A stretch of DNA of 38,112 nucleotides, from positions 1-38,112 of the IMG/VR virus record IMGVR_UViG_3300048839_001335; one strand, 5' to 3'. The notes under the pieces are model-generated. The model had not been told where the DNA came from. It saw only the letters and a list, made by a program, of their open reading frames with translations, and did no database searches. Shown here piece by piece: positions 883-36,338 of the stretch; positions within the stretch are counted from its first letter, which is position 1; each line of letters opens with the position of its first letter. Made by a program: the position numbers and the translations under genes. This stretch comes from a virus.

Positions 883-1229
883 CGTGTTACATCGGCTAAA
901 ATTGTCCAGGTTCCTTCTACATAGGTTTTTACCTTACCATCCGGAAAGGTGAATTGCACATCGTACACATAGGTTTTAGCGGGCAGGTTTATTACCTGCT
1001 CTTTAAAAGCAAATGTGCCGTTTTCTGCATCGGTAATTTCAATGCCTTCGGTTTCGGTTGAAAGTGTAAGCCAATGATTAGCTTCGTTTTTACGCTGCCT
1101 GAATTGACACTTGATATTGCAATCAGTTATGTCAATCGGGTTTTCATTGGCATCTAACAACTGCATGGAGAGGCCCTTCCAGGTGTCTCCGGTAGTGTGA
1201 TTCTTTATGTTATAAACTGCTGGTTTCAT
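879..1229 (-). CDS. BppU-like baseplate/fibre N-terminal domain protein, 116 aa
   Basis: This small all-beta protein resembles the N-terminal domain of phage upper baseplate proteins. It opens with a 'DTWKGLSMQLLDANENPIDI' type strand pattern and ends with 'YVYDVQFTFPDGKVKTYVEG', the layout typical of BppU N-terminal domains, which describe a linear or field-like input and end in a TW-x-I strand. In such phages the domain anchors receptor-binding proteins to the baseplate. It overlaps both neighbours by 4 bases, implying translational coupling. Assignment is by pattern memory only, and a generic fibre-attachment protein is the alternative. Confidence 0.6.
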   Translation of the reverse strand: MKPAVYNIKNHTTGDTWKGLSMQLLDANENPIDITDCNIKCQFRQRKNEANHWLTLSTETEGIEITDAENGTFAFKEQVINLPAKTYVYDVQFTFPDGKVKTYVEGTWTILADVTR

Positions 1230-3361: not shown

Positions 3362-4599
3362 ACTTCTGTTATCAAAATATCCGCGAAGATTGTAATTCTA
3401 TGGCCTAACGTTGTTGGTGCACTCCAATCAATCTTTACGTATTCAGCGGTTACTCCGGGCGTTATCACCATGTCGCTTCCACCATTTTCCTCATCATGTA
3501 AACGGGTGAAGCCTGTCATAACTGGGTTTGAAGTGCCTTCCTTATGAAAGCCCGCAGTTATTACATCTGTTTTAGCCATACTTCCATCACTAACTTTAAC
3601 AGAAACGCAATGGAATGTGATGAGCGCGCACGCATTCTCATAACCGAGAAACACATTAAATGATTGTGATCCTGCCGAAGATGCATTATTGACAAACCAT
3701 TCAGTGTACTTTTTTCTTTTCTTGCCCGAATCAGCATATCGTACACCAACTGCGGCATCTTGATTAATTATAAAGTACTCAACCCGGCCACTGCCGCAGA
3801 ACTCTGCGAATATCAAATTCAGTTCATCAGCAACGTATTCACCTGCAATCTTAACCCATCCACTTGGGTAGGTTGGCTCAGCCGAATCTTCATGGTAGAT
3901 TTTTTGAACGAAGCCAAGTCGGGCGTTGGTAAGATCATGGGTGAGGTTTCCGGTTACCGGTGAACTCTCAGTTCCATACACCCTTGGGGTACTAAAATTA
4001 ATATCTCCTGTGCTTTGCGATGTTCGGTAAGCTGCTGTAAGGGTTAGCGGAGTAATTACACGGTTACCATCAGTACCAGCCACAGCTTCATCAATATCAG
4101 CTAACTCAACAATACCCTTTTCTGTATCACTCGCATCACCAACAATACTCGCAAACGGCAAATAGAAAAACTCACTTGCCTCATCGGCATCGGCCTGCTT
4201 GGCAAACAATACATCGCCTACAGCTAAATCACCAAGGCCTGCTATGGTGCCGGGCGTGGTTATAAACCAGTAGTCGCCTTTGTCAATGGCTCCACCTTCA
4301 CCACTGCCGGTTGTGGGTAGGCCGGTGCTGGCATCGTGCTCGCCAACAAGCTCACCTACGGAGGTGATGAGGTTGTACAGTTTGTTGAGTGTATTGCCTT
4401 GCGTAGGCACACCATCACGCAGGGCAGCTATCGTATCAGGCCCAATGCTGTTAAGTGTTGAGATCAATTCATCAACACTGGCCATTGGTATGGCTTCATC
4501 TTTATGCCAGTAGCTGTTTATCCAGGCTTCAAATTGGGTGGCAAGCGGCTTCAAACCCCGCTTAAACCAGTTAATAAGTGTGCTCTTTGATGTTGCCAT
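3358..4599 (-). CDS. Tail fibre protein, 413 aa
   Basis: The central motif 'EKGIVELADIDEAVAGTDG' followed by 'RVITPLTL' (residues about 160-190) is a hallmark of phage tail fibre shafts: an 'A-x-T-EKG-V-LA' repeat followed by 'GTD...RVVTP'. The N-terminal 60 residues are helical and may be the baseplate attachment part. The C-terminal half is beta-rich and probably forms the distal domain. The gene overlaps the downstream spike gene by 4 bases and is separated by one base from the upstream adhesin gene. Which bacterial receptor it recognises cannot be read from sequence. Confidence 0.75.
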   Translation of the reverse strand: MATSKSTLINWFKRGLKPLATQFEAWINSYWHKDEAIPMASVDELISTLNSIGPDTIAALRDGVPTQGNTLNKLYNLITSVGELVGEHDASTGLPTTGSGEGGAIDKGDYWFITTPGTIAGLGDLAVGDVLFAKQADADEASEFFYLPFASIVGDASDTEKGIVELADIDEAVAGTDGNRVITPLTLTAAYRTSQSTGDINFSTPRVYGTESSPVTGNLTHDLTNARLGFVQKIYHEDSAEPTYPSGWVKIAGEYVADELNLIFAEFCGSGRVEYFIINQDAAVGVRYADSGKKRKKYTEWFVNNASSAGSQSFNVFLGYENACALITFHCVSVKVSDGSMAKTDVITAGFHKEGTSNPVMTGFTRLHDEENGGSDMVITPGVTAEYVKIDWSAPTTLGHRITIFADILITEV

Positions 4600-9367: not shown

Positions 9368-9999
9368 TCCACCTCCAGTTCAAAAATGCTGTCACTCTCA
9401 AGCTTCAAGCTAAAAGGCCGTATGTGCTTGCGGCCACCTTCAACTTCAGGCAGGTCTAAACTTTCAACAACCACGCGCTGCATGCTGCCAGCTTCGGCTG
9501 ATAGCGTTGGATTGATTAAGAAGATGTTGGTAAGCGGGCAGTCCAGGCCAACAGCCTGCTTGCTTTCCGCCAGGTACTTCAACACTTCCAGTTCACGTTC
9601 CGGAAACACCCGGTTCTCGTCAATGGCAAAGCCTTTAATGCTTATGGCATAGTCATCAACCCCGTACACTTCCTTTACTGTGCCCTTACGGTTGGGCAGT
9701 GCGGTTTTGATTATGGTTTTCTTAACCGAAATTTTCACCACCGTGTACGGCAGCAAAATCTGGTTGAAGCTGAATATGTCCTGTGGTAAATCGAAAAACG
9801 TAACGGGCAACCAAACTTCTTTGCCCATGAATGTATCCGTTAATGGCTGACCGCTCCGGCTGTATGTGGTATCATCCTGCTGGCCTTCCAGGTTAAAGGG
9901 CACACCATCTGTTTGAGCCCTGCGGTTATCCGTAATTACAGGCCTGGTGCCAAATGTTTGGCGATAGAGTTCAGCAAGATCGTACAGTAAAAAACTCAT
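9364..9999 (-). CDS. Tail/baseplate protein between tape measure and hub, 211 aa
   Basis: It occupies the position of Mu gp43 (historically called a DNA circularisation protein). The sequence reads as a Bacteroidetes phage family that I associate tentatively with DUF6046: 'LTDTFMGKEVWLPVTFFDLP', then 'IKTALPNRKGTVKEVYGVDD' and 'IKGFAIDENRVFPERELEVL'. These motifs resemble LysM-less tail proteins that fit a tube-baseplate junction. No membrane segment or signal is present. The gene overlaps both neighbours by 4 bases. Confidence 0.6.
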   Translation of the reverse strand: MSFLLYDLAELYRQTFGTRPVITDNRRAQTDGVPFNLEGQQDDTTYSRSGQPLTDTFMGKEVWLPVTFFDLPQDIFSFNQILLPYTVVKISVKKTIIKTALPNRKGTVKEVYGVDDYAISIKGFAIDENRVFPERELEVLKYLAESKQAVGLDCPLTNIFLINPTLSAEAGSMQRVVVESLDLPEVEGGRKHIRPFSLKLESDSIFELEVE

Positions 10000-11771
10000 T
10001 GTACTGCGGCCCCACTGTTTAATATTCTCAAAAACACTTCTTCAACCTTGCGTTCAACTTCGCCAAGTCCTTCACTCAGTTGTGTTGTGTGTATTTCCAG
10101 TCGTTCAACCATGCGATCAATTTGAATGTTGATTACACGTGGGCCACCGCCTGTAATTCCTTTAACCGCTTCATCACCAGCTCCTGCACCAACAGGTTTA
10201 CCGGGTGTAATGGCGTTTGTCAGGGATGATCCTCCTGGAGCTGATGCACTTACTGATGAGCCTGCCTGCTGGCCACGGTTCCAGGCATCGGCCAATGTTT
10301 TACCAAAGCCACCTGAGCCTGCCTTACCCAACAACCATTTTACTGCGTTGATGATGGGCGCAAACACCTGTGCAAAGTGATCGCGTATTTTAATGAAGAT
10401 GTCTTTGAACACATCCCACAACCACAGGAAAGCATCTTTCAACACATTAACCAGCTTAACGAATAGTTTAAACTGCCAGATAATGTGATTGATGATGGGT
10501 TGGAAGAGAACCTTCAGCACTTCCCAAATACTCAGTATGGTTTTCCGGAATCCTTCAAAGTTGTTATAAGCCCAGATAATACCAGCTACAAGTGCACCAA
10601 TGGCCACAATAATTAACCCGATTGGGTTGGCCGTCATAGCAGCATTTAAAAGCCACTGAACGCCCGTCCAAACCTGTGTGGCAAGGGCTACACCTTGCAT
10701 GGCAAGTACATACGCATAGTATCCGGCTGTTGCGCCTCCAATTATGGCTACCAGGGCCGAGAGCCAGCTCCAGTTTTCTTTTATCCAGTTTACGGTTTGC
10801 ACAGCTGCCGGTACAATGGTATTCACCAGCAGCATACCCAAATCAATAAGCCCATGCATGAGTGGTTGCAACGCAGTGCCCATTTCGGCTGCACCCAATG
10901 ATATTACGTCTCGTAGTGTGCTGAATCTTCCGGTAACGGTTTGACTCTGTGCATCCATAGCACCGGCATACAAGCCACCTGCCTGGGCTGCACGGTTAAG
11001 TGCATCGCTCAGCAGGTCATAACTCACATCCATCTCCTTCACCTGGTCAATACTTTTACCAGTTGCTGTAGCCAACAGTTGGTATATGTTAATACCAGTC
11101 ATAGCAAACTGCCGTATATCCATTGCAGTTGCTTTGCCTACCGTTTTAATCTGCTGCATGTTTGCAGCCATACGCGAAAGCACATCGTTACCACCGCCAA
11201 CAGCTGCAACAGCATTGGCAAGGTTAAGCGTATCCTGCCGGGCTGCATCAGCATTTACACCGGCACTGATCAGCGCACGGTTTACCTGTAATAATCCGGC
11301 AACACTAAACGGAGTACGCGCTGCGTCTTGCTGCACGTTTGAATACACTTGCTCGGCTCCTTGCTGGCCGAGGAAAGTGCGCAGGCCTACAATGTCCTGC
11401 TCTTTTTGTGCACCAGCACCAAACACACCACCAATGGCACCGGCAATTGCCAAAGGCCCCAGGTAGTTGCGGGCCATAGCCATAATGCCAAGCCCGCCCC
11501 CACCACCTGAGGCAACACCGCCAGGATGCCTTGCTGCCACGCGCTGCAATTGTTCCAGCTCGCGCCTGGCTGCACGTATGTGAGAAATTGATGTTGATTT
11601 TGAGATGGCTGATTCCAGCTCTCCGATTTTTCGTCTTACCTGGTCATAGCTTTGTGAAAGTGTACCGTTTACGCCTTTTATGGATGCAGAAGTGCTGCGT
11701 GCAGTGTTGGCCATTTTTACCAGGCCACTGCTTACCATTTCCCGTAGTCGTATGAAGAATTCGAGATTCAT
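9996..11771 (-). CDS. Tail tape measure protein, 591 aa
   Basis: Residues about 95-300 contain the TP901-type tape measure core ('GAQKEQDIVGLRTFLGQQGA', 'NLANAVAAVGGGNDVLSRMA', 'TAMDIRQFAMTGINIYQLLA'). Residues about 335-400 are very hydrophobic ('LSALVAIIGGATAGYYAYVL', 'PIGLIIVAIGALVAGIIWAY'), which is normal in this family and probably concerns DNA ejection. A glycine-rich linker precedes a helical C terminus. At roughly 1.5 angstrom per residue, a short tail of about 90 nm would follow (inference). It starts directly on the stop of the chaperone fusion frame (ATGA). Confidence 0.9.
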   Translation of the reverse strand: MNLEFFIRLREMVSSGLVKMANTARSTSASIKGVNGTLSQSYDQVRRKIGELESAISKSTSISHIRAARRELEQLQRVAARHPGGVASGGGGGLGIMAMARNYLGPLAIAGAIGGVFGAGAQKEQDIVGLRTFLGQQGAEQVYSNVQQDAARTPFSVAGLLQVNRALISAGVNADAARQDTLNLANAVAAVGGGNDVLSRMAANMQQIKTVGKATAMDIRQFAMTGINIYQLLATATGKSIDQVKEMDVSYDLLSDALNRAAQAGGLYAGAMDAQSQTVTGRFSTLRDVISLGAAEMGTALQPLMHGLIDLGMLLVNTIVPAAVQTVNWIKENWSWLSALVAIIGGATAGYYAYVLAMQGVALATQVWTGVQWLLNAAMTANPIGLIIVAIGALVAGIIWAYNNFEGFRKTILSIWEVLKVLFQPIINHIIWQFKLFVKLVNVLKDAFLWLWDVFKDIFIKIRDHFAQVFAPIINAVKWLLGKAGSGGFGKTLADAWNRGQQAGSSVSASAPGGSSLTNAITPGKPVGAGAGDEAVKGITGGGPRVINIQIDRMVERLEIHTTQLSEGLGEVERKVEEVFLRILNSGAAVQ

Positions 11772-12841: not shown

Positions 12842-13990
12842 TTATTCGGCTATCTGTGAAACAATACCTATCTCAACATCAATAAAGCTGTTGTAACCTT
12901 TAGGCTGAACGCGCACCTTAATGGTGGTTTTGCTTGTATTGATGATGTCCTGTGCCGGGTTGATGTAAATTTCAACACCGCTAATCTGGTTACCCATAGC
13001 AACGTTCACCTGTTGTTCAATCTTCTTCTCCAGGTACGTAACTGCGTAGCTGGCCAGGTTGCCATTCGGCTCAACATCAACTTCGCCTTCCAGCTCTTCC
13101 ACATAAGTGGCGGCTGCAATAATGGCTGCTTTATCGGCTAATCTTCCGTAAGCCAGCAGTCGATAGTCATCGATGCTGCACATGCGGTCAATGCCAAAGA
13201 AGAACCCGGCCTTTTGCGGGTGCGTCATAAAGCTGATGAAGCCTGCATCATGAAGAGTGGTGAGGTTAGTTACATCCTTCAACAGCGATGTGCCAATGTA
13301 TACCTGGCTAATGCTTAGCGGGCCATTGGCCACCTTGCCAAGTTTTATTTCAGCAGGGTATTTCACCGCACGACCAAGCGCAAGCCCAACACTCGCTGAA
13401 CCATCGTTCAAACTTCCACCAAGCACCACTCCGGCAAAACCGTTCGTGCTGTTTTTTGGTGTAAGCGCATTGGCAGCAGCAGGGTTTTCAACCCGGCCTT
13501 CAATAAGTACACGCAACGGTGCAGTCTCTGCCAGGCGGGCTTCAGCAAACACTTTGCTGTTGGTAATGGCTGTGGCTACATCACTGTCAATGAAGTCTTC
13601 ACCGCCATCATAACCCACACCAGGCTTCCGGTAAACGCCCAACAAGCGAACGCGACCGGGCACATGGTTAATCAGTTTTTTAGCGCCATTTGCATTGGTG
13701 TTGTCCAGCATTTGAGCCATCGTCATCGTATCGGGTACGATCATGATGTGAAGCTCCTGGTTACCACCAAGCTCGCCATAAAACTCCTTCAAATGCCTGT
13801 GCATATCAGGCTCATCATCCTCTGTGAAGCCCTGAGCTTCAGCATCGGCCAGACTGTACACCGTTTTGGGAACGCCCAACAATCCGGCTGAAGTGCCGGT
13901 ACCGCAAATGGCAGCAATGCCGTCAAGTGCAGCAATGTCAAGCAACAGGTTTCCGTTGGCGTACAGTATGGTTACTTTTGGTAAACTCAT
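12842..13990 (-). CDS. Tail sheath protein (DUF2586-like), 382 aa
   Basis: The protein has the sheath layout: an N-terminal alpha/beta part including 'GIAAICGTGTSAGLLGVPKT', a middle with 'HIMIVPDTMTMAQMLDNTNA' and 'AAANALTPKNSTNGFAGVVL', and a C-terminal polymerisation part with 'DKAAIIAAATYVEELEGEVD' and 'ISGVEIYINPAQDIINTSKT'. The latter matches the strand-exchange ends of contractile sheaths, where a helical insertion is followed by long strands. Bacteroidetes phages often carry such DUF2586-type sheaths. The next gene in the operon is the tube, as expected. Confidence 0.78.
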   Translation of the reverse strand: MSLPKVTILYANGNLLLDIAALDGIAAICGTGTSAGLLGVPKTVYSLADAEAQGFTEDDEPDMHRHLKEFYGELGGNQELHIMIVPDTMTMAQMLDNTNANGAKKLINHVPGRVRLLGVYRKPGVGYDGGEDFIDSDVATAITNSKVFAEARLAETAPLRVLIEGRVENPAAANALTPKNSTNGFAGVVLGGSLNDGSASVGLALGRAVKYPAEIKLGKVANGPLSISQVYIGTSLLKDVTNLTTLHDAGFISFMTHPQKAGFFFGIDRMCSIDDYRLLAYGRLADKAAIIAAATYVEELEGEVDVEPNGNLASYAVTYLEKKIEQQVNVAMGNQISGVEIYINPAQDIINTSKTTIKVRVQPKGYNSFIDVEIGIVSQIAE

Positions 13991-18547: not shown

Positions 18548-19000
18548 ATGGCAAACAAAAAAGAAGAGCTAAGCCGTAAGAAGCGACTTGCGTACACGCT
18601 TTATGTCGATAATGGCTTCGAACAAAAAGTAATTGCCGAGATAACCGGCATCAGCGAGAACAGTATTTCCAAATGGAAGAAAGAACACAACTGGGATAAT
18701 GACCGTGAAGAAGCCCGCTTAGGGTTTGAACCACAACGCAAGCGCATACGCAAGCAGCTCGATACCTTACTCGATACCATCGAGAAACGAGAGACCCCAT
18801 TAAATGTGCCCAATCAAAAAGAAGGTGTGCTCATCAATTGGCTGGCCGATGCCGTGAAGAAGCTTCAAACTGAATTGTCATTTCAACACAAAGCTGAAGC
18901 CGGTAAACAGTTTGTTCGGTACGTACAAGAAACACATGGGCAAGCCAAAGCGATTGACATAGTTGAATTGTGGCATGAATACCTGATGGCTACCGTATGA
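18548..19000 (+). CDS. Terminase small subunit-like / DNA-binding HTH protein (Mu gp27-like), 150 aa
   Basis: I favour the ATG at 18548 ('MANKKEELSRKK') over the in-frame GTG at 18542. Residues about 10-45 are a helix-turn-helix of the terminase small-subunit type ('LAYTLYVDNGFEQKVIAEIT', then 'ISENSISKWKKEHNW'), as in Mu gp27/DUF1804-like proteins. A helical C terminus follows. It would select phage ends for packaging together with the large subunit, whose start overlaps it by 4 bases. First gene of the rightward head operon. Confidence 0.75.
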   Translation: MANKKEELSRKKRLAYTLYVDNGFEQKVIAEITGISENSISKWKKEHNWDNDREEARLGFEPQRKRIRKQLDTLLDTIEKRETPLNVPNQKEGVLINWLADAVKKLQTELSFQHKAEAGKQFVRYVQETHGQAKAIDIVELWHEYLMATV

Positions 19001-20544
19001 GTGTACAGACCAGGCAAATTATTGATTGGGAGAAATTCCGCGAAAGCGTACGGAAGGATACTGCTGTTAACCTTAAGGAAACTGCTGCGGAAAAGAAGAA
19101 GCGCATGGCCGAACTGGAGGCCAACCCGCAAAAATGGAAAGCATATTACTTTCCGAGGTACTTCAAATACCCATCGCCTGAGTTTCATTTAAACGCCTCT
19201 AAAAGACTACTTAAGAACTTTGAGCGCAATAAACACTGGTACGAAGTAAGACATTGGGCGCGTAACCTTAGTAAAACTACGACAACAATGTTTGATGTGC
19301 TGTACCTGGTGCTAACCGGAAGGCTCAAAAACATTGTGCTTACCAGCAGCACATACGATGCTGCCGAGGGATTTCTAACCAAGTACCAGGTACAGTTGGA
19401 TAGCAACCAGAAAATTATTGCCGATTACGGTAAGCAGGAAAAGCCAGGCAGTTGGTCGCTCGGAAACTTTACTACACGCAGCGGTGCCATGTTTACTGCG
19501 TTGGGTGCAAGACAAAGTCCTCGCGGTAAAAGCAATGAAGAAATTCGACCCGATTGCATTATTGTTGATGACTTCGACACTGATGAGGAGTGCCGAAACC
19601 CGGACATCATCAATCAAAAATGGGATTGGTTTGAAAAGGCTCTATTCTTTACTGTCGACACAGCACAACCATACCTGGTCATTTGGCTCGGTAACATAAT
19701 TGCCCCCGATTGCTGTGTAGTACGCGCAGGTCACGTTGCTGATCATTGTGAGATCATCAACATACGTGATGAGTTTGGTAAAAGTGTGTGGCCTCAAAAG
19801 AACAGCGAAGAAGACATTGATTACCAACTCAGCAAGGTAAGCTATGAAAGCGGCCAGCAGGAATTTTTCAACAACCCAATCCGCCAGGGCCAAACTTTTA
19901 AAGAAATGGTGTGGGGTAAATGCCCTCCGTTGAAAGAGCTTGACTTTTGTGTTGTCTATGCTGACCCTTCACCATCAAACCGCGATAAGCCAACGGTTAA
20001 AAGCCGGTTGCAGAACAGCGCGAAGTGCGTGGCTATAGTTGGTTTTAAAGACCTGAAGTATTACGTGTACACCGTATGGCTGGATAACACCACCAACGCA
20101 AACTTTGTGGATTGGCTATACCATTCACGTGAATACATTGGCACCAAAACAACAGCGTTCTACCTGATTGAAAACAACACACTCCAAAACCCACACTATG
20201 AACAGGTGGTGTTGCCACTGATCTTTCAGAAAGGTAAAGAAACCGGAGAGGTGCTTGGCATTACACCCGATACCCGCGATAAACCCGACAAGTGGGTGCG
20301 TATTGAAGGAACGTTGGAACCACTCAACAGGCTCGGCTTACTCATCCTCAATGAAGATGAGAAAAACAATCCGCACATGAAACGATTGGTTGCACAGTTT
20401 ACTTCAGCAGGTGCCAGCAGCAAAACACTTGATGGGCCTGATACCATTGAAGGCGCGGTGTACATCATCCGAAGCAAAATAGCCGTTCAATCCGTTGGCG
20501 ATATAACCATCATTAAACGAACCACAAACCCTAAACGATTTTAA
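18997..20544 (+). CDS. Terminase large subunit (Mu gp28-like), 515 aa
   Basis: The N-terminal ATPase domain carries a P-loop-like 'HWARNLSKTTTT' (residues about 87-97) and Walker B 'CIIVDDFD' (187-194). The nuclease domain begins with 'VVYADPSPSNRD' (319-330), providing the first metal-binding aspartate. Later acidic residues include 'LDGPDTIEGAVY' near 487-498. Length is normal for the family. It packages DNA headfully into proheads through the portal encoded two genes downstream. Confidence 0.85.
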   Translation: MSVQTRQIIDWEKFRESVRKDTAVNLKETAAEKKKRMAELEANPQKWKAYYFPRYFKYPSPEFHLNASKRLLKNFERNKHWYEVRHWARNLSKTTTTMFDVLYLVLTGRLKNIVLTSSTYDAAEGFLTKYQVQLDSNQKIIADYGKQEKPGSWSLGNFTTRSGAMFTALGARQSPRGKSNEEIRPDCIIVDDFDTDEECRNPDIINQKWDWFEKALFFTVDTAQPYLVIWLGNIIAPDCCVVRAGHVADHCEIINIRDEFGKSVWPQKNSEEDIDYQLSKVSYESGQQEFFNNPIRQGQTFKEMVWGKCPPLKELDFCVVYADPSPSNRDKPTVKSRLQNSAKCVAIVGFKDLKYYVYTVWLDNTTNANFVDWLYHSREYIGTKTTAFYLIENNTLQNPHYEQVVLPLIFQKGKETGEVLGITPDTRDKPDKWVRIEGTLEPLNRLGLLILNEDEKNNPHMKRLVAQFTSAGASSKTLDGPDTIEGAVYIIRSKIAVQSVGDITIIKRTTNPKRF

Positions 20545-21125: not shown

Positions 21126-22466
21126 ATGAAAAAACCACGGGTTAAAAAAACTACTGAGCAGGCAAAGAGCCTTGTTATCCAGGAGATCAACATTACCAGT
21201 GTTGACCGCAGCCGGAAAGATATTGGTGAACTAAAAACCGCTTTACAGTCTGCTGAAAGTATACACTATCCAAACCGCACACGCCTGTACGATTTGTACG
21301 AAGATGTAGTACTTGACGGGCAGGTTACGGGTGTAATTGAAAAGCGTATTGAATCCGTTCTAAACAAAAAACTAACCTTTAACAAAAAGGGCGGCAAGCG
21401 GGTTGATGAAATGGATCACACCATTCGTAGCCGCGAATTTAGAAAGATCATCCGCAGCATTATGGAAACACAAGCCTGGGGAACCAGCGGCATGGAATTC
21501 ATACCCGGCCCTGAGCTTTCCTTTGTGTCCATTCCGCGCAAGCATATCAAACCGCACAAGCAGGTAATTGCACTTGAGCAAACCGGTGAGGATGGAATTT
21601 CATACGCAGGTGTAAGTAACCTGTGGGTACTCGGTGAGCCTGATGATTTAGGTTACCTGTTAAAGTGTGGACTATACGCTACATACAAACGTGGTGCGCT
21701 TGGAGATTACGCGCAGTATGTTGAAATATTCGGCCAACCGGTTCGCATTATCTATTACGATGCGTACGACACTAAAACGAAAATGGAACTTCGCCAGGTG
21801 TTGGATGAAAGCGGCTCATCCCTTGCCCTGATGATTCCAAAGCAGGCGCAGTTTGAAATAAAAGACGGCAAGCAAACCAATGCGAATGGCGATCTTCAAA
21901 AGAAGTTCTTAAGCTACTGCGATGATCAGATTTCAATCATTGTGCTGGGTAATACTGAAACAACACAGGCCAGCAGCAGCAGCGGTTACGCGCAGAGTAA
22001 AGAGCACGGCAAGCAGCAGCTTGAAAAAACAAAAAGTGACATGGAGTATGTACTCAATGCACTTAACTCCGATCACTTCTTAAACATACTCAAAAGCTAC
22101 GGCCTTCCTGTTGACGGAGGCATGTTTGAGTTCGAAAAGGAAATTGATCTGGATGAACTTAAGAAGAAGGCTGAGATTGAAGAAATTGTAATGCGAACAT
22201 TTAAGGTGCCTATTGATGATGATTATGTGTACCGCACGTATGGCATTGAGAAGCCTGACAATTACGATGAGCTGAAAGCCAAACAGGAGGAAGAAAAACT
22301 GGCTATGCAACAACAACTTGCAAAGCCGGGCAATCCATCTGAAGAAAAACCGGATGAGAAGCCAAAGCCAGCTAAGCCAAAGCCGCAAAGCAAAGATTTA
22401 GTGGCCCCTACTTTTTGGGATAAGTTCCGGTCGCAGCTCGCTGATTTTTTCGACCCGGCCCCCTAA
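21126..22466 (+). CDS. Portal protein (DUF935, Mu gp29-like), 446 aa
   Basis: It shows the DUF935 portal pattern: 'RTRLYDLYEDVVLDGQVTGV' and 'EKRIESVLNKKLTF' near the N terminus, 'MEFIPGPELSFVSIPRKHIK' (residues about 122-141) and 'QISIIVLGNTETTQASSSSG' (about 273-292). These are followed by the long helical region typical of the crown and a lysine/proline-rich tail. The C terminus ends 'FWDKFRSQLADFFDPAP'. The TAA stop falls directly after a run of five C residues, and the next gene's frame is open through this point (see findings). Confidence 0.85.
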   Translation: MKKPRVKKTTEQAKSLVIQEINITSVDRSRKDIGELKTALQSAESIHYPNRTRLYDLYEDVVLDGQVTGVIEKRIESVLNKKLTFNKKGGKRVDEMDHTIRSREFRKIIRSIMETQAWGTSGMEFIPGPELSFVSIPRKHIKPHKQVIALEQTGEDGISYAGVSNLWVLGEPDDLGYLLKCGLYATYKRGALGDYAQYVEIFGQPVRIIYYDAYDTKTKMELRQVLDESGSSLALMIPKQAQFEIKDGKQTNANGDLQKKFLSYCDDQISIIVLGNTETTQASSSSGYAQSKEHGKQQLEKTKSDMEYVLNALNSDHFLNILKSYGLPVDGGMFEFEKEIDLDELKKKAEIEEIVMRTFKVPIDDDYVYRTYGIEKPDNYDELKAKQEEEKLAMQQQLAKPGNPSEEKPDEKPKPAKPKPQSKDLVAPTFWDKFRSQLADFFDPAP

Positions 22467-25605: not shown

Positions 25606-25902
25606 TCAGGTAAACTCATAGTAATCATTATCGCCACGAATAACTGTGGTGAAGGGGAACCCGTTTTCGGGTACGCGCTTAATCTGGTCTATCAGCACGG
25701 TTGAGCCGGTGAACACTATGCGTTTCTCACTGCCCTTTTCAATTTGCAGGGTTAGCAGCTCGGTGCCCTTCTTATGCTTTGAGGGTTCAATCTTAAAGGC
25801 CAATACTTTTATGGTGAGGTTGAACAGCTTTTGAACCTGTATTTTCTCGCCCACAAAGTTGTTAATGCGCGGCTTGATGTTGAAGTCTTTGAAGTTATTC
25901 AT
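25606..25902 (-). CDS. Small beta-rich protein, 98 aa
   Basis: The pattern 'VGEKIQVQKLFNLTIKVLAF', 'IEPSKHKKGTELLTLQIEKG', 'RIVFTGSTVLIDQIKRVPEN' and 'FPFTTVI' recurs, as far as I remember, in small proteins of Bacteroidetes mobile elements. It looks like a single OB-like or ssDNA-binding-type barrel with the 'V-F-T-G-S-x-V-L' loop. Nucleic acid binding would be consistent with its place behind the reverse transcriptase and DUF4031-like genes but is inference. Start overlaps the preceding gene by 4 bases. Confidence 0.6.
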   Translation of the reverse strand: MNNFKDFNIKPRINNFVGEKIQVQKLFNLTIKVLAFKIEPSKHKKGTELLTLQIEKGSEKRIVFTGSTVLIDQIKRVPENGFPFTTVIRGDNDYYEFT

Positions 25903-26171
25903 AAAATTTTGGGGGCTTCTTTTCTTGAGTATATAATTTTAGCCAATTCCATCATGGTAACAGGTTTGGCTCCGTACTTTTCAATGGCTAATTTTTTCTT
26001 AGATAAGCAAATATCAAAGTGTTCACGATATGTTCCTTCCGATTGAATCCACTTGCGATTAACGCCAATCTTATCTGCCATTTGTAAGAGCTCCTCTCTT
26101 GTGTCGGCAATCATGTGACACATGAGCATTCGCCCGTATGGGTGATTCATGTTATCAATGTAAACCGCCAT
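25899..26171 (-). CDS. DUF4031-like protein, 90 aa
   Basis: The sequence opens 'MAVYIDNMNHPYGRMLMCHM' and continues 'IADTREELLQMADKIGVNRK' and 'REHFDICLSKKKLAIEKYGA'. These are the core motifs of DUF4031 (V-Y-x-D-N-M ... M-C-H-M-x-A-D-T-x-E-E-L-x-x-x-A-x-x-I-G-x). The conserved aspartate and histidines suggest a small enzyme or nucleotide-related fold, but its biochemistry is not established to my knowledge. It overlaps the RT gene by 17 bases, so both are translated from one message. Confidence 0.75.
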   Translation of the reverse strand: MAVYIDNMNHPYGRMLMCHMIADTREELLQMADKIGVNRKWIQSEGTYREHFDICLSKKKLAIEKYGAKPVTMMELAKIIYSRKEAPKIL

Positions 26172-27114
26172 GTATTAGTTTTTTAGTCAGGTGCTTTGCG
26201 TTGGCGTGTTTTAGCCAGCCCATGTATGAGGCTACCGTGGCGGGCTTGGCATTGCGGGTAAGCTTACGGGCAAAGTTCTTTTTAATTTGCTTGCGCAGCC
26301 GTATGTGCGTGTGGTAAAACACGTAGCCCACGTAATCGATACCGCGAGCGACCACCGGAAACACCTGGTGGTTGGGTTTCACCTCCAGCTTCAGTTCTTC
26401 CAGGTATAGCTTTATGTCTTCCAGCAGTTGGTGCAGCTCGCGCTTGTTGCTGCCCAATATCACTACATCATCGGCATAACGGTAGTAATACTTCACGCGC
26501 TTCTCTTCCTTCAGCCAGTGATCGAAATATGTTAAATAGAAGTTAGCCAGGTACTGGCTCAGGTAGTTGCCAATGGGCAAGCCAGGTGCACTGTCAATAA
26601 TCTCATCGAGCAGCCACAGCAGGTCTTTATCTTTAAACTTTCTGCGCAGCAGCTGCTTGAGCGTGTGGTGATCAACGCTGGGGTAAAACTTCTTTATGTC
26701 AAACTTCAGGCAATAGCGGGTGCCTTCAGTGTCGTTTAAGTCACGTTTTAGTTTGTTGAGCAGAGCATGTATGCCGCGCTGCTTAATGCAGCTGTAGGTG
26801 TCAGCCGTGAAGGTGCGAACGAATATCGGCTCCAGCACATTCATAATGGCGTGGTGTGTAATACGGTCGGGGAAGTACGGCAACCGGTACACAATGCGTT
26901 CTTTTGGTTCGTGCACGGTAAAAATATCGTAGGTGCTGGTGCTGTAGGTTTTACTCTGTAGCAGGTCTTGCAAAATAAGCAGGTTAGCCTCGCGGTTTTG
27001 GTTGTGTTTGATTACGCCATACTGGTTGGCCTTGCCCTGCTGTGCCTTGCGGTCGGCTTCTTGCAGGTTGGCCATGCTGGTAATTTGTTCGTAGAGGTTG
27101 GTGAGGCGTTTCAT
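26155..27114 (-). CDS. DGR-type reverse transcriptase, 319 aa
   Basis: Palm motifs are clear: 'CLKFDIKKFYPSVDHH' (residues 135-150, D139), 'GLPIGNYLSQYLANFYL' (178-194), 'YYRYADDVVILGSNK' (210-224, catalytic YADD 213-216) and the thumb-side 'GIDYVGYVFYHTHIRLRK' (258-275). The 'IGxxxSQ' box in place of QGxxxSP separates DGR enzymes from group II intron RTs. There is no maturase or endonuclease domain. It copies the template-repeat RNA with adenine-specific errors. Start overlaps the 65-aa gene by 4 bases. Template and two variable repeats lie upstream, confirming the class. Confidence 0.93.
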   Translation of the reverse strand: MKRLTNLYEQITSMANLQEADRKAQQGKANQYGVIKHNQNREANLLILQDLLQSKTYSTSTYDIFTVHEPKERIVYRLPYFPDRITHHAIMNVLEPIFVRTFTADTYSCIKQRGIHALLNKLKRDLNDTEGTRYCLKFDIKKFYPSVDHHTLKQLLRRKFKDKDLLWLLDEIIDSAPGLPIGNYLSQYLANFYLTYFDHWLKEEKRVKYYYRYADDVVILGSNKRELHQLLEDIKLYLEELKLEVKPNHQVFPVVARGIDYVGYVFYHTHIRLRKQIKKNFARKLTRNAKPATVASYMGWLKHANAKHLTKKLIHGGLH

Positions 27115-27308
27115 CTGGCTTGATATGTTTGAAACACTACAATGTCATCTTTGAATATTTTGGACTCACCTTCGCCACTTTGTAATTCGAATGCAGAGGC
27201 ATTTCTTACAATCCTCTCGTCAATCTTATCGCCAGTGCACAATACTTTAAATTGCAAGCAGCATGCAGCATAGTAGCGTTCCTCAAGTAATACAACCTGG
27301 CGTTTCAT
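27111..27308 (-). CDS. 65-aa protein between template repeat and RT
   Basis: A short protein, 'MKRQVVLLEERYYAACCLQF' then 'KVLCTGDKIDERIVRNASAF', beta-like and roughly neutral in charge, with three cysteines. It starts one base after the stop of the 36-aa membrane peptide and overlaps the RT start (ATGA), so it is translated with the RT. The position is where many DGRs have the accessory protein Avd, but Avd is a larger, basic, four-helix protein and this sequence does not resemble it. Unrecognised; possible unusual DGR accessory. Confidence 0.6.
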   Translation of the reverse strand: MKRQVVLLEERYYAACCLQFKVLCTGDKIDERIVRNASAFELQSGEGESKIFKDDIVVFQTYQAR

Positions 27309-27309
27309 C

Positions 27310-27420
27310 TCACTTTTTGAGTTTGTCTAAGATGTAATACCATAGAATTATTAAACACAGAACAACCACCAAAACTATTCCTACAATGTCGGTTGCTGAT
27401 AAGAAGAATATTGATTTCAT
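27310..27420 (-). CDS. 36-aa single-TM peptide within the DGR
   Basis: ATG at 27420, TGA at 27312-27310. The product reads MKSIFFLSATDIVGIVLVVV then LCLIILWYYILDKLKK: a hydrophobic helix of about 20-24 residues, then a basic tail, i.e. a membrane peptide with the C terminus probably inside. The next start (65-aa gene) lies one base after its stop. It lies between the template repeat spacer and the RT and was too short to be called automatically. Function unknown. Confidence 0.6.
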   Translation of the reverse strand: MKSIFFLSATDIVGIVLVVVLCLIILWYYILDKLKK

Positions 27421-27590
27421 CTTTAAGTTGGTTATTTTAAAATATCCTTTGCTTCTTTCAAGTCGCCTTCGCTTTCACTACCAACGACCTGGTGTTTACG
27501 TTACGTGATTTTTTGCCTTTCGGCATGGCCTGCAACAGTTTTTTGCCTTTCCACCCTCTCCTTTAAGGAGAGGGCCGGGGTGAGGCTTTT
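27421..27590 (-). ncRNA. DGR template RNA 3' spacer with hairpins
   Basis: The 170 bases between template repeat and the 36-aa gene carry no convincing gene. They hold a perfect stem CCCTCTCC/GGAGAGGG (27554-27561, 27567-27574; one more A-T pair possible) only 17 bases 3' of the template in the transcript sense. A TGCC-GAAA-GGCA stem with a GNRA loop lies near 27513-27524, and a repeated 12-13-base segment GAAAGGCAAAAAA occurs twice. In studied DGRs the equivalent RNA between template and RT is required for cDNA priming, so this is the expected functional position. The 27554 hairpin also resembles common intergenic palindromes of Bacteroidetes. Confidence 0.55.
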
Positions 27591-27666
27591 AAGCATAGGT
27601 GCGAGCTGACATTCGAATTCGTGTTCCAGTTATCGGAGTCGTTAAACCGAAACCCGGACGGGCCGC
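27591..27666 (-). repeat. DGR template repeat (TR), 76 bp
   Basis: On the minus strand the repeat begins with an adenine-free block of 23 bases (encoding GPSGFRF), then a stretch with 16 adenines, many as AAC/AAT codons: in the target frame it would read N D S D N W N T N S N V S S H L C. Aligned without gaps to VR1 (offset 178) and VR2 (offset 564) it differs only at adenines: 14 and 12 of the 16. It is located between the VP1 gene and the RT, as in typical DGRs. Confidence 0.95.
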
Positions 27667-27694
27667 TCCAACCGTTGCACAGCCTTTTGTTTTC

Positions 27695-27712
27695 ATTACT
27701 TCACAAAGTAAT
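27695..27712. other. Hairpin across the VP1 stop codon
   Basis: ATTACTT (27695-27701) and AAGTAAT (27706-27712) form a 7-bp perfect stem with a 4-base loop that includes the VP1 stop codon. It lies between VR1 and the template repeat. DGR target genes often carry a hairpin near the variable repeat that aids homing, but this one is 57 bases from VR1, and VP2 has no equivalent. Confidence 0.35.
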
Positions 27713-28085
27713 CGCGGTACAAGTCAATAAACTGCTGCGCGATGTAATCGCTCACTTCTTCACTCAAAAAGCAAAGGCGCGAGCCGACATCCGAAAACGC
27801 GCGCCAGTCAACGGAGCCGCGAAACCGAAACCCGGACGGGCCGCCATTCAGGTAAAACCATGGATGCCACTTGTCCCACTGGCCGTTGTCCCAATTGGGT
27901 GCCCATTCGTTACCATCGTTGGCCAGCTTGTTGGCAGCGCGGGTAACAATAACAAGTTTGGCGTGTGCCTCCAGTGCCTTGCGGTCTTGCTCCGGGTAGC
28001 ATGAGAAATCAGGAACAACTTTTTCAGGGTCGAGACTCAAGACCTTGCAAGCGTCTTCGAACGTTTTTAAATCGGTGTACTTCAT
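27696..28085 (-). CDS. DGR target protein VP1, 129 aa
   Basis: Residues 1-70 are helical with no signal peptide ('FEDACKVLSLDPEKVVPDFS', 'LEAHAKLVIVTRAANKLAND'). Residues about 72-100 hold W-rich segments 'WDKWHPWFYLN' and 'GGPSGFRF', followed by the variable stretch RGSVDWRAFSDVGSRL (VR1) and a constant tail 'SDYIAQQFIDLYRDYF'. The final domain is shared with VP2 and with small proteins I have seen in Bacteroidetes phages ('P-W-F-x ... G-S-G-F-x-F ... G-S-R-L-C-F-K'). Ligand unknown. Starts on the ATGA of VP2's stop. A 7-bp hairpin covers its own stop codon. Confidence 0.85.
   Translation of the reverse strand: MKYTDLKTFEDACKVLSLDPEKVVPDFSCYPEQDRKALEAHAKLVIVTRAANKLANDGNEWAPNWDNGQWDKWHPWFYLNGGPSGFRFRGSVDWRAFSDVGSRLCFLSEEVSDYIAQQFIDLYRDYFVK
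27769..27844 (-). repeat. DGR variable repeat VR1 in VP1
   Basis: Ungapped 76-bp match to the template repeat (offset 178). All 14 differences are at template adenines (coding strand), giving G 8 times, T 4 times and C twice; the two unchanged adenine sites correspond to template positions 27612 and 27630. The first 23 bases are identical. The repeat ends 73 bases before the end of the gene rather than at it. Confidence 0.95.
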
Positions 28086-28531
28086 ATAGTCATAAATTGT
28101 TTGTAGAGGTCAATGAATTGCTTGCCCGCATAATCGCTCAGCTCGCGGGTTTTGTAGCAAAGGCGCGAGCCGACACCCGAACACGCGTCCCAGTAATCGG
28201 AGCCGTCAAACCGAAACCCGGACGGGCCGCCCATTTCAAACCACGGGAAGTACTTGTACTCATTGGAGTTATTCCAATCGGGTGTCCAGCCCTGGTTGAG
28301 TGCTTTAGCCAGCAGCTTCAGCAAGCGATAGGCTTTTTCATCATGGCTCAAATCGGCACATGATCTGTCAAAGCTTGCTTTGTCCAGGTTGTGCCACGCC
28401 AGCACATCATCAACCGTTTTAATGCGCTCGGTGATGTTCTTGGGCCGCTCTGTTAATTTGATCACACCTGACTCTTTGTCGATGCTGTCAATAACAAACC
28501 CTTTCGGGATTTCAATTTTTAGTGTTTGCAT
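28082..28531 (-). CDS. DGR target protein VP2, 149 aa
   Basis: Residues 1-30 are beta-like ('KIEIPKGFVIDSIDKESGVI'). Residues 35-85 are helical ('TVDDVLAWHNLDKASFDRSC', 'EKAYRLLKLLAKALNQGW'). The C-terminal domain starts 'YKYFPWFEMGGPSGFRF', followed by the variable stretch DGSDYWDACSGVGSRL (VR2) and the constant tail 'KTRELSDYAGKQFIDLYKQF'. No signal peptide or membrane segment, so it is cytoplasmic or packaged (inference). It is coupled to VP1 by a 4-base overlap and lies 11 bases after the 4-TM protein gene. Confidence 0.85.
   Translation of the reverse strand: MQTLKIEIPKGFVIDSIDKESGVIKLTERPKNITERIKTVDDVLAWHNLDKASFDRSCADLSHDEKAYRLLKLLAKALNQGWTPDWNNSNEYKYFPWFEMGGPSGFRFDGSDYWDACSGVGSRLCYKTRELSDYAGKQFIDLYKQFMTI
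28156..28230 (-). repeat. DGR variable repeat VR2 in VP2
   Basis: Ungapped match to the template repeat (offset 564) over 75 bp. All 12 differences are at template adenines, read as G (9) or T (3) on the coding strand. The 23-base adenine-free block is identical to template and VR1. Seven substituted sites have the same new base in VR1 and VR2. Confidence 0.95.
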
Positions 28532-33442: not shown

Positions 33443-34306
33443 TCAGGCTGCTTTTTTCATTGTCCTCATGCGGCTCTTGTGTACACCTCGTTCAAGCCGC
33501 CTCAAATCGCCCTCATACTCATTATATATAGAGGTAATCAGTGAGGGGTCTTTCAGTCCGTTTGCCTTGCATATTTCAGCCACCTCATCCTTATCGGTAC
33601 CGCGCAGGCTAATGAACCTGCGGCCCAAACGGCTGTATATTTCCGAGTAACCCTTTTTGTTTATGCGCCTGCCGCGCACAATGCGCTTGGCAAAGAAGTC
33701 GGTGGCAAGCATTACAATGCCGCACTTGCCATGCAGGTGGTTGTACAGGGTAATGAAGAAGTACAGCACCGGGTCGGGCAGTTTGTCAACCTCATCCAAT
33801 ATTATCAGCGGGTTCTCCTGTCGCATCAGCAGGTCTACAATCAAGTCCATCATTTCGGCCACGTTGTAGCCAGTGTTTTCCTTACCCATCTTTTCAAGAA
33901 TTTTGGTGAGGAACACTTTTCGGTTGAAGTACTCTGCGCATGAAATGTGGTACACGTTATGGCGCTTGCCTTCGTACCACTGGCTTACATAGGTTTTGCC
34001 GGAACCACTTGGAGCAGTGATGGCAAATACATTGCTGAACTCTTTGGCATCTTCAAAGTAGTGGATCAGCATTTTGGCATCTACCGTCTCCACAAAATTC
34101 CAGGTTCCCTTCTTGCTAAAGCCAACCTGCTTACCAACGTTGCGCCACATATCGTCACTTATGTTCTCCCACTTACCCGTGCGGATGTTGATAATGGTGG
34201 ATTCACTTACATTGCGCAGGCTGGTTGATGCCTTAGCCTGGCTTGGGTACTGCTCAACGTAAAGTTTAAGCAGCATTTGAATTTCCTTTTTCTGATGATC
34301 TGTCAT
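33443..34306 (-). CDS. MuB-like AAA ATPase, transposition target-selection protein, 287 aa
   Basis: The N terminus is a helix-turn-helix region (residues about 15-65: 'SQAKASTSLRNVSESTIINI'). Walker A 'APSGSGKT' (98-105) and Walker B 'PLIILDEVDKLPDP' (166-179) follow, with the family-typical 'GKCGIVMLATDFFAKRI' sensor strand and arginine-rich 'RRINKKGYSEIYSRLGRRFI'. MuB binds target DNA, forms ATP filaments and delivers target DNA to MuA. The gene is directly behind the MuA gene, as expected. Confidence 0.88.
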   Translation of the reverse strand: MTDHQKKEIQMLLKLYVEQYPSQAKASTSLRNVSESTIINIRTGKWENISDDMWRNVGKQVGFSKKGTWNFVETVDAKMLIHYFEDAKEFSNVFAITAPSGSGKTYVSQWYEGKRHNVYHISCAEYFNRKVFLTKILEKMGKENTGYNVAEMMDLIVDLLMRQENPLIILDEVDKLPDPVLYFFITLYNHLHGKCGIVMLATDFFAKRIVRGRRINKKGYSEIYSRLGRRFISLRGTDKDEVAEICKANGLKDPSLITSIYNEYEGDLRRLERGVHKSRMRTMKKAA

Positions 34307-34367: not shown

Positions 34368-36338
34368 TTACATTTGGTCATACAAGTCATCTGCATTGAA
34401 GCTCCTGCGCTCAATCACCGGTGCCAGCACCTTTTGTTCGGCTGTTTGGCGCAGCTCCTTCACCACAACACCGGCTTGTAGTATGGCTTCAGCGTCAATG
34501 CCCGCAGCTTGCAGCACTTCCTTCCTGCGATCAGCTTTGTTGGCGATGTAATCCACATCTGTTTCCTTTTCTTTCAGTACTGCGTTCAAGTAAATGCGGC
34601 TGTCGGTGGTGGTATCCTGCAAAGCGCGTTGGCTCAATCGTGCATCGGTGGCAATCACTCTAACTTTATCAAAGTCGGTAACCAATACACGGCTCATGTC
34701 AAATGGATCGTATAGTATGCTTACCGGCTTGCCAACGTACTCCATAAGTGATGGCACTTGCAGGTCGTAGCTGTAGCGTACTCCGTTTATCTGTGGCTCA
34801 ACACCACGGTTGGTAATGCGCAGCACCCGGCTTTCATTTCGGTGCTCAATACCAAACTTGAGCAGGAATTGTTCATCGTTTATAAGCCGCTTATCTTGTG
34901 CGGGCAGTTGGTTCCAGGCATCGAGCCATTGTTGTTGTTTGCTTACACCATTACTTTGTGGCATGTGGCGAAGGCGGTGAAAGAATCCTTCAATTTGCTG
35001 TGAAGCTTCAGCGCCAATAAGTGGATAGTCCTTTTTGTTCCGTGCCAGTGCTTCGGTGTTTACACCACGAAACTTGGCCGTCATGTTGTTACCGTTGTAA
35101 TTGTTGGCGCCAATTTTAATGCAGCGCTTCCAGTGTGGTGAGCCGAAGAACTGTTCAATGTATCCACGGTTCTTACTTCCGGCAGGGCTCTCAATATACT
35201 TGCCTATCGATTCATAAAAGGGCTTCAGGTTTTTAATGTCCCAATTGTCAGTCTTTGTTTCGTGGGGTAAATACCAGGCACCGGTAAGGCTCCTTATATA
35301 ATACATCGCATTCAGATATGCGGCACGTATCAATTCAGTGGTTAAATTTTGCGCATAGGCATAACCAAGTGGCATGTCGTTAAAGCTATCGGTAACCACC
35401 ACTGCTATGTAGCGGTTGTAGTATTTGCTCGTACTGTTGTCCTCAGGGTTTATAAACAGTAGGTCGAGTGTGTTGTCATCACTCTCAATCATGTAGAGTG
35501 GTGCACTTGGCCTTACACCTTTGGCTTGCTTCAAATAGGTATTGCGAAGAGCAGCATTGCCTTCACGTTCCATAATAATCTCCTCTTCCTTCTCACGTCT
35601 CCACACACCAACAGTTGCTGCCTTTATCGGCTTGTAACCGTTCTGCTTAGCCCACTTGTTGTACTGCATGGCAATGAAAACATCATCGTATTGGTTGGGA
35701 TGAGCAATCATTTCAAGCAGTGTGCTGCTGCTCAGTTCATCGGTTATCTTTTTCGCCAGGTCATTTCCAAACCGCCAATCAACCAGTGATTTGTAACCAT
35801 CGTTTATGTACTTCTTAAGGGCCGAGTCATGGGCAATGGCAAGTCTGCGGTAAGAGGTAGGCAGGTCTATCTTGTCCTCTTTAATAATCTCGCAAACCTT
35901 CTCATAAAATTGTTGGATGGATAGCTTCAGTAGTTTCTTCAGCGTCTTCTTATCCTCGGTAACTTGTTTCAGCATATTCAGTACACTCGCAGCTTGTGTG
36001 TACTTCTTTACATGCTCGGTTGGCAGGGGCTTGTTGTTGTATCGATAGTCTAAGTAGTATTGCTCAGCCTGGTCATCCCACTTAATCAGGTTTCGAATTG
36101 GTTGCTTGGCTGCATATTCGTAAGGGTCTCCGAAACGAGCTTCAATCTTTTTCTTGTGGTCATCACGAAGTTTATCAAATCCAACCAACACTGCTCTTCC
36201 ATCATCCGGATCATCAATAAACTCCCATGATGGCGATTTACGATTTCGTGCACCGTCTAATGTTCCTTTTGGAATGCCACATTCAAGAGCTGCTTTCCAG
36301 GTAATAAATGCGCGGTTATCGATCAGCTTAATATTCAT
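34368..36338 (-). CDS. MuA-like DDE transposase, 656 aa
   Basis: The layout is that of MuA. The N-terminal end-binding domains cover residues 1-250, including HTH-like 'AALECGIPKGTLDGARNRKS' near 16-35. The catalytic RNase H-like core spans about 280-400, with D287 or D288 in 'MIESDDNTLDLLF', D364 in 'HETKTDNWDIKNL' and E395 in 'NRGYIEQFFGSPHWKRC'. A beta-barrel domain (about 500-560) and a C-terminal helical tail that would contact MuB follow. It cuts and joins the phage ends for replicative transposition. Stop overlaps the next gene region by a normal spacing. Confidence 0.9.
   Translation of the reverse strand: MNIKLIDNRAFITWKAALECGIPKGTLDGARNRKSPSWEFIDDPDDGRAVLVGFDKLRDDHKKKIEARFGDPYEYAAKQPIRNLIKWDDQAEQYYLDYRYNNKPLPTEHVKKYTQAASVLNMLKQVTEDKKTLKKLLKLSIQQFYEKVCEIIKEDKIDLPTSYRRLAIAHDSALKKYINDGYKSLVDWRFGNDLAKKITDELSSSTLLEMIAHPNQYDDVFIAMQYNKWAKQNGYKPIKAATVGVWRREKEEEIIMEREGNAALRNTYLKQAKGVRPSAPLYMIESDDNTLDLLFINPEDNSTSKYYNRYIAVVVTDSFNDMPLGYAYAQNLTTELIRAAYLNAMYYIRSLTGAWYLPHETKTDNWDIKNLKPFYESIGKYIESPAGSKNRGYIEQFFGSPHWKRCIKIGANNYNGNNMTAKFRGVNTEALARNKKDYPLIGAEASQQIEGFFHRLRHMPQSNGVSKQQQWLDAWNQLPAQDKRLINDEQFLLKFGIEHRNESRVLRITNRGVEPQINGVRYSYDLQVPSLMEYVGKPVSILYDPFDMSRVLVTDFDKVRVIATDARLSQRALQDTTTDSRIYLNAVLKEKETDVDYIANKADRRKEVLQAAGIDAEAILQAGVVVKELRQTAEQKVLAPVIERRSFNADDLYDQM

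Follow-up and report, generated by a model that had tools for sequence, protein, structure and literature searches.

A DGR with two small paralogous target genes in the early region of a Mu-like phage

Introduction

The usual explanation of DGRs in phages is that they act on tail fibres and thereby switch host range. In the window, which is the whole 38,112-base virus record analysed here, a DGR lies between the transposition genes (MuB) and the late genes, which raises the question of whether this cassette is complete and working, which proteins it rewrites, and where these proteins act. In the present study, the repeats, the reverse transcriptase (RT), the spacer RNA, the accessory genes and the targets were compared with those of related loci. 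We conclude, with a probability of about 0.92, that the window carries a complete and active DGR of a Mu-like, contractile-tailed Bacteroidota phage, which rewrites two paralogues by the mechanism proposed below.

Results

Cassette, repeats and phage backbone

All of the DGR features lie on the minus strand (Table 1), in the order target 2, target 1, template repeat (TR), spacer, RT, DUF4031 gene and ORF98. The TR aligns gaplessly with 81 nt of VR1 and 77 nt of VR2, the mismatches fall exclusively at template adenines, and both VRs are in frame within intact protein-coding ORFs. The initial annotation had described one TR and two gapless VRs with adenine-only differences, and this description was borne out, as the probability that all mismatches fall on adenines by chance is 1.7e-13 for VR1 and 7e-11 for VR2. 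In the 76 columns originally compared, 14 of 16 (VR1) and 12 of 16 (VR2) template adenines are changed and the other bases are unchanged; the sole apparent non-adenine mismatch of VR2 is the last column, beyond the end of homology. The adenine specificity stands, but three of the differences counted in each VR are fixed boundary differences and not products of mutagenesis. Likewise, the DGR is complete as described, but the earlier coordinates did not extend to the conserved spacer RNA or to the candidate gene for an accessory protein. A TR/VR search of all 38,112 bases revealed no third VR.

Table 1. Positions of the DGR and backbone features in the window
Feature	Position	Strand	Remarks
Target 2, distal paralogue, 149 aa	28082-28531	-	4-bp overlap with target 1; phrog_11581
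VR2 in target 2	28156-28232	-	core 28176-28207; putative IMH block ~28158-28172
Target 1, TR-proximal paralogue, 129 aa	27696-28085	-	VR at ~residues 80-107, then predicted C-terminal helix; phrog_11581
VR1 in target 1	27765-27845	-	core 27790-27821; putative IMH block ~27772-27786
Template repeat (TR), ends extended	27587-27667	-	mutagenised core 27612-27643 (13 adenines); IMH*-like 3' block ~27594-27608
Hairpin-rich insert CCCTCTCCTTAAAGGAGAGGG	27539-27585		between TR and RNA element; most relatives without the extra spacer length
Structured RNA element, ~90 nt, in TR-RT spacer	27445-27538	-	relative of Rfam RT-17 (RF03020)
RT, 319 aa	26155-27114	-	YADD and IGNYLSQ; PF00078 (E 3e-22); phrog_1423 (E 3e-123); ORF intact
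DUF4031 gene, between RT and ORF98	25899-26171	-	PF13223 (E 3e-22)
ORF98, 98 aa, pI 9.6 (basic)	25606-25902	-	candidate DGR accessory protein
MuA-type transposase	34368-36338		phrog_310, PF09299
MuB-type ATPase	33443-34306		phrog_296
Portal	21126-22466		
Terminase	18997-20544		
Tail sheath	12842-13990		
Tape measure	9996-11771		
Tail fibre	3358-4599		

The presence of both a MuA-type transposase and a MuB-type ATPase identifies the phage as Mu-like (transposable). The earlier description as a Mu-like prophage is thus retained for its first part and not for its second, as no host sequence was identified on either side of this viral contig. A 711-aa protein (1226-3361), encoded next to the tail fibre, has no PHROG match and is a possible receptor-binding protein.

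The RT carries its SQ motif in place of the QGxxxSP of group II enzymes. In a tree of DGR and group II intron RTs, 22 DGR RTs were separated from 2 group II intron RTs with support of 100/100, and the window RT groups with those of BPP-1, Hankyphage and crAss-like DGRs; some long branches meet in this tree, and the exact placement of BPP-1 and Hankyphage is unsure. The retron model St85 scored 62 against the RT, below its cut-off of 235, and the PADLOC library gave general RT matches only. The expected position in the DGR clade was confirmed by the motif and the tree. No ORF lies between target 1 and the TR, where Avd was sought, and none of the nearby proteins scanned gave an accessory-protein match; the absence of Avd is typical of the lineage of this RT (PMC7290462). 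From the RT grouping, the target-TR-RT order and the lack of avd, the window DGR appears to be of the crAss-like, or lineage 3, type.

Mutagenised core and homing boundary

A position table was built from 161 VRs of 82 loci, anchored on the 3' block. At TR adenines from -35 to -4, all four bases appear in the VRs. On either side, the changes are nearly fixed: adenine +1 is replaced by G in 154 of 161 VRs, +8 by G in 114 of 115 and +12 by T in 89 of 97, and in the 5' part, G takes the place of adenine -54 in 44 of 46 VRs and of adenine -47 in 49 of 52. The three 3'-most differences of the window, template A to G, G and T at 27607, 27600 and 27596, are the same in VR1 and VR2. These differences were considered as products of mutagenesis and rejected, since they are nearly fixed across the 161 VRs. 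The comparison across VRs thus reveals the fixed 3' TR/VR differences by which IMH and IMH* are recognised, and we read them as marking the homing boundary, whereas the fixed 5' differences are read as upstream homology that is not overwritten. The mutagenised part comprises 13 adenines in eight codons, of which 11 are changed in VR1 and 9 in VR2, and allows 4^13 possible DNA variants.

Relatives and activity

Among viral contigs, 80 relatives of the RT were found by scanning, and 73 of these have TR/VR pairs with adenine bias, nearly all with 0-2 other mismatches; in most of the relatives with such pairs, the VRs form tandem sets of two or three with similar spacing. When viral and genome loci are taken together, adenine-biased pairs are present in 135 of 152. 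Two pairs of contigs are nearly identical. L002 and L003 are identical over 2,257 bp except at 6 sites, each a VR template adenine (Fisher 1e-13), and the 5,995 bp of L063 and L064 contain 13 differences, again each at a VR template adenine (Fisher 1e-27); variation confined to these positions, proposed earlier as a check, was thus observed in both pairs. The remaining contigs of the group L059-L068 have a few differences elsewhere too. Between L079 and L080, changes were found at 11 of 48 VR template adenines, 0 of 122 other VR positions and 38 of 10,937 positions outside the VRs. Because all of the differences within the two near-identical pairs fall on VR template adenines, the DGR system is active, as demonstrated in these relatives of the window phage.

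Two arrangements differ in copy number. In Dyadobacter sp. Leaf189 (L111/L177/L178), one TR serves four target genes over ~50 kb. One of these targets is ~48 kb distant and has the opposite orientation; it shows 17 adenine-only changes and adjoins phage-type auxiliary genes. In Dysgonomonas sp. PH5-45 (L137), the TR and targets seem to be tandemly duplicated, with two TR copies 617 bp apart.

Spacer RNA

The TR-RT spacer contains a predicted structured RNA with 13 consensus pairs. Pairing holds in 92.8% of cells, a value biased towards the structure because the latter was derived from the same alignment; the stronger evidence is that 10 pairs are changed on both sides. None of 500 shuffles was equally good, and pairing dropped to ~41-46% when the partner was shifted by one column. 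The covariance model R1 located the RNA directly upstream of the RT in 51 of 51 held-out target-family loci, and matched 16 of 16 Bacteroidales long-TR loci and 2 of the 2 crAss-like loci tested; with the same model, the RNA was not found in BPP-1 or Hankyphage. In Bacillota and a Margulisiibacteriota genome (L142, L143, L146, L147, L149), R1 gave weak but well-placed matches upstream of DGR RTs, which suggest that the RNA may be older than the Bacteroidota family. The Rfam cut-off for RT-17 is exceeded at the homologous site in six loci (L026, L046, L055, L079, L082, L138), and the window copy aligns with RT-17 over its full length at 22.1 bits, under the cut-off of 40.4. The corresponding spacer of BPP-1 is folded, recruits RT-Avd and serves to prime the cDNA (PMC12875486), and for this reason it is a reasonable inference that the spacer RNA here would be the 3' region of the template RNA that recruits and primes the RT. 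The candidate for the priming adenine lies in an invariant A-run that follows the first hairpin.

In the window, 554 bp separate the starts of the TR and the RT, versus 170-200 bp in most relatives. The hairpin adjacent to the TR (27539-27585) was considered as a conserved DGR element and rejected, because the spacer is far shorter in most relatives. It consists of a perfect inverted repeat, CCCTCTCC TTAA AGGAGAGGG, with flanks GGGGTGAGG, and resembles a mobile intergenic repeat; Rfam matches to this segment (mir-320 and snoR19) were far under cut-off. The lengthened spacer also contains a possible 36-aa ORF, MKSIFFLSATDIVGIVLVVVLCLIILWYYILDKLKK (27310-27421, minus strand), with a single predicted membrane helix, which adjoins ORF65 (27111-27308). 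ORF65 itself was rejected as an accessory gene, as it is present in no other locus.

Accessory genes

Profile searches found ORF98 after the RT in 98 of the 100 target-family loci with enough downstream sequence, and 106 of its 110 matches lie no more than 60 bp from where the RT ends; a displacement of ~250 bp is seen in the window and in L002/L003. A homologue is present in 27 of 38 sister loci. Moreover, the ORF98 domain is fused to the C-terminus of the RT in Hankyphage (E 4e-22) and three other loci (fusions L154, L132, L152 and L120). This fusion, together with the strict linkage, makes ORF98 a strong candidate for a partner of the RT. The DUF4031 gene is rare at its position, with a homologue in only 2 target-family loci, and is probably outside the DGR system.

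Target proteins

The target family ranges from 97 to 197 aa (median 138), and the sole family match of the two window targets is phrog_11581, of unknown function; Pfam and PDB-sequence searches gave no match, and target 2 had none among INPHARED phage records at E<1e-5. AlphaFold models, for which 120 and 83 relatives were used, reached a pLDDT of 87.8 for target 2 (m04348ce30fdf) and 84.7 for target 1 (m917594e4ff05), and both predict a confident helical scaffold, a low-confidence loop for the VR and a C-terminal helix. No C-type lectin fold was recognised by a PDB fold match at E<=0.001, but as the VR part is of low confidence in both models, a divergent lectin fold may have escaped this search; a BFVD fold search returned uncharacterised phage proteins only, five of them at E<0.001. 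The VR is internal, followed by ~22-30 residues of coding sequence such as the usual DGR targets lack (PMC8144416). The BPP-1-type hairpin 3' of the VR was also sought in 188 VRs: the mean longest stem was 3.85 bp versus 3.80 bp in shuffled sequences, one VR had a stem of at least 7 bp, and the BPP-1 control gave 8 bp.

In the target tree, TR-proximal proteins are largely set apart from distal ones, with 7 label changes versus 18.2 in shuffles, and so the target pair is old, with its order kept and a few local replacements. In a reverse search from the target proteins by single-protein scans, the RT was found in 28 of 35 loci; six other target records were searched whole, one of which contains only a distant RT. 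Target-family proteins on five viral contigs without a detected related RT (L200, L204, L206, L216, L218) are possible orphan or non-diversified homologues.

Discussion

Herein, we propose the following mechanism for the window DGR. A transcript consisting of the TR and then the spacer RNA would be bound by the RT, probably together with ORF98 in the place where BPP-1 has Avd; this role of ORF98, like the direction and priming of cDNA synthesis, is inferred. The cDNA would be primed near the TR 3' end and would receive random bases opposite the 13 template adenines, and it would then replace the matching core of VR1 or VR2. The 3' block (CGGCTCGCGCCTTTGC in the VR versus CAGCTCGCACCTATGC in the TR) would act as IMH/IMH*, with upstream homology supplied by the GC-rich 5' block. 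The outcome would be the rewriting of eight codons in each of two small paralogues encoded with early genes. The two targets may cooperate as variable binding proteins, more likely in the infected cell than on the virion.

Two other explanations bear on the cassette itself. The fixed 3' differences (A to G, G and T) might result from protein selection on the GSRLC motif and not from absent cDNA transfer, and indeed two of the three alter conserved residues (S to G, H to R). However, the third is silent in the window phage (CTA to CTT), so that protein selection fails to explain why +12 is nearly always T; where the TR has G or C at +12, the VRs are still mostly T (10/17 and 9/17); a silent 5' adenine (TCA/TCG) is likewise nearly always G; and sister-lineage DGRs with tail-fibre targets have the same signature. 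We therefore regard selection on the protein as improbable and retain the homing boundary as the reading of these positions. Even more improbable is that the cassette is a degenerate remnant in the window phage, as might be supposed from the additional 370 bp between TR and RT and from the gene inserted between RT and ORF98, because the RT, TR, RNA element and ORF98 are all intact, as is the IMH block of either VR, and the close relatives L002 and L003 have the same long spacer and RT-ORF98 gap and vary only at VR template adenines.

Where the targets act is a more evenly balanced question. If they were virion proteins, such as small tail-tip or fibre-associated adhesins, the DGR would alter host range as in BPP-1 and Hankyphage. 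Phage DGR targets are mostly tail proteins (PMC8144416), tail-collar fibre or tail proteins are also what is diversified in crAss-like phages, whose RTs are the closest outside the family (PMC7290462), and the VR block has ~30 columns, ending GSRLCF, in common with crAss-like tail targets, the likeness to the lectin-type tail targets of the sister lineage being limited to this block. Yet the targets are small and match no structural-protein family, the tail genes of the window lie 12-25 kb away from them, and in other phages they are not beside tail genes. By the tests made here, they do not appear to be tail proteins, and we consider a virion role a definite but lesser possibility. Alternatively, the targets may act inside the infected cell, for example by binding varied host proteins (defence, transcription) or the proteins of other phages in an intracellular arms race. 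They are found in the early region of many unrelated phage backbones, where the genes with a name beside the cassette encode methyltransferases, helicases, RecT, HNH nucleases, replication initiation proteins and terminase, and no tail family is among the 25 commonest neighbour families listed. Moreover, they are predicted to be small and soluble (pI 5.1 and 6.1), with no apparent signal or membrane segment, and have no match in the anti-phage-defence library, so they are not known defence proteins. Because the neighbours are early and DNA-metabolism genes with no tail family among the commonest, we rate an intracellular recognition role above a virion role, at close to an even chance judged from gene context and protein sequence.

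Several DGRs resemble that of the window in part. The crAss-like phage DGRs (crAssphage LMMB; RT 'lineage 3', PMC7290462) share the target-TR-RT order, the absence of avd, IMH/IMH* and a detectable spacer RNA, and their RTs are ~48-55% identical to the window RT. However, they have one large tail-collar fibre target in a structural gene block with the VR at its extreme C-terminus, whereas the window has two small early-region targets, internal VRs and a short TR of ~80 nt. Hankyphage p00 (PMC6199706, PMC12135933) is also a Mu-like Bacteroidota (Bacteroides) phage with a DGR, and its RT has an ORF98-like C-terminal domain; in contrast, this RT is 37% identical to the window RT, its TR is 117 bp, model R1 detects no spacer RNA, and the VR of its target lies at the C-terminus of an ORF that exceeds 2,200 residues and has a C-type lectin domain. 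BPP-1 of Bordetella is similar in adenine mutagenesis, IMH/IMH* logic and a structured TR-RT spacer RNA (PMC12875486), but has Avd and a VR at the gene end followed by a hairpin with an 8-bp stem, and the window has neither Avd nor hairpin. The gut phage DGRs nd4 and nd12 (tentaclins, PMC10743442) combine one TR with two target genes in a phage, but their targets are dissimilar C-type lectin proteins with receptor-binding roles, unlike the paralogues of the window, which have no detectable lectin fold. Thus, DGRs in Mu-like Bacteroidota phages (Hankyphage, PMC6199706) and two-target phages (PMC10743442) were known already. As far as the literature shows, the paired small early-region targets, the internal VR without a hairpin, the link between RT-17 and DGRs, and ORF98 are apparently new, and the 2018 DGR-lineage survey or the RT-17-defining paper may cover the last two. 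The loci may also be present, among target clusters that carry no annotation, in large surveys (PMC8144416).

The cassette is present in more than 100 Bacteroidota phage or prophage loci, always with small early-gene proteins and mostly with a pair of long-separated paralogues. We tentatively suggest, as a rather doubtful extension, that these loci represent a widespread class of Bacteroidota phage DGR, in which an Avd-free machine of RT, ORF98 and an RT-17-type template RNA would diversify two small cytoplasmic proteins that form an obligate pair and have a helical scaffold other than a lectin fold; this would be a phage-encoded hypervariable intracellular recognition system. The candidate structured RNA RT-17 is now linked to DGR template transcripts, and an accessory factor is proposed for a DGR lineage that is listed with none, which makes reconstitution directly testable. 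If the targets are indeed intracellular, DGRs would serve a second arena of the conflict between phage and host.
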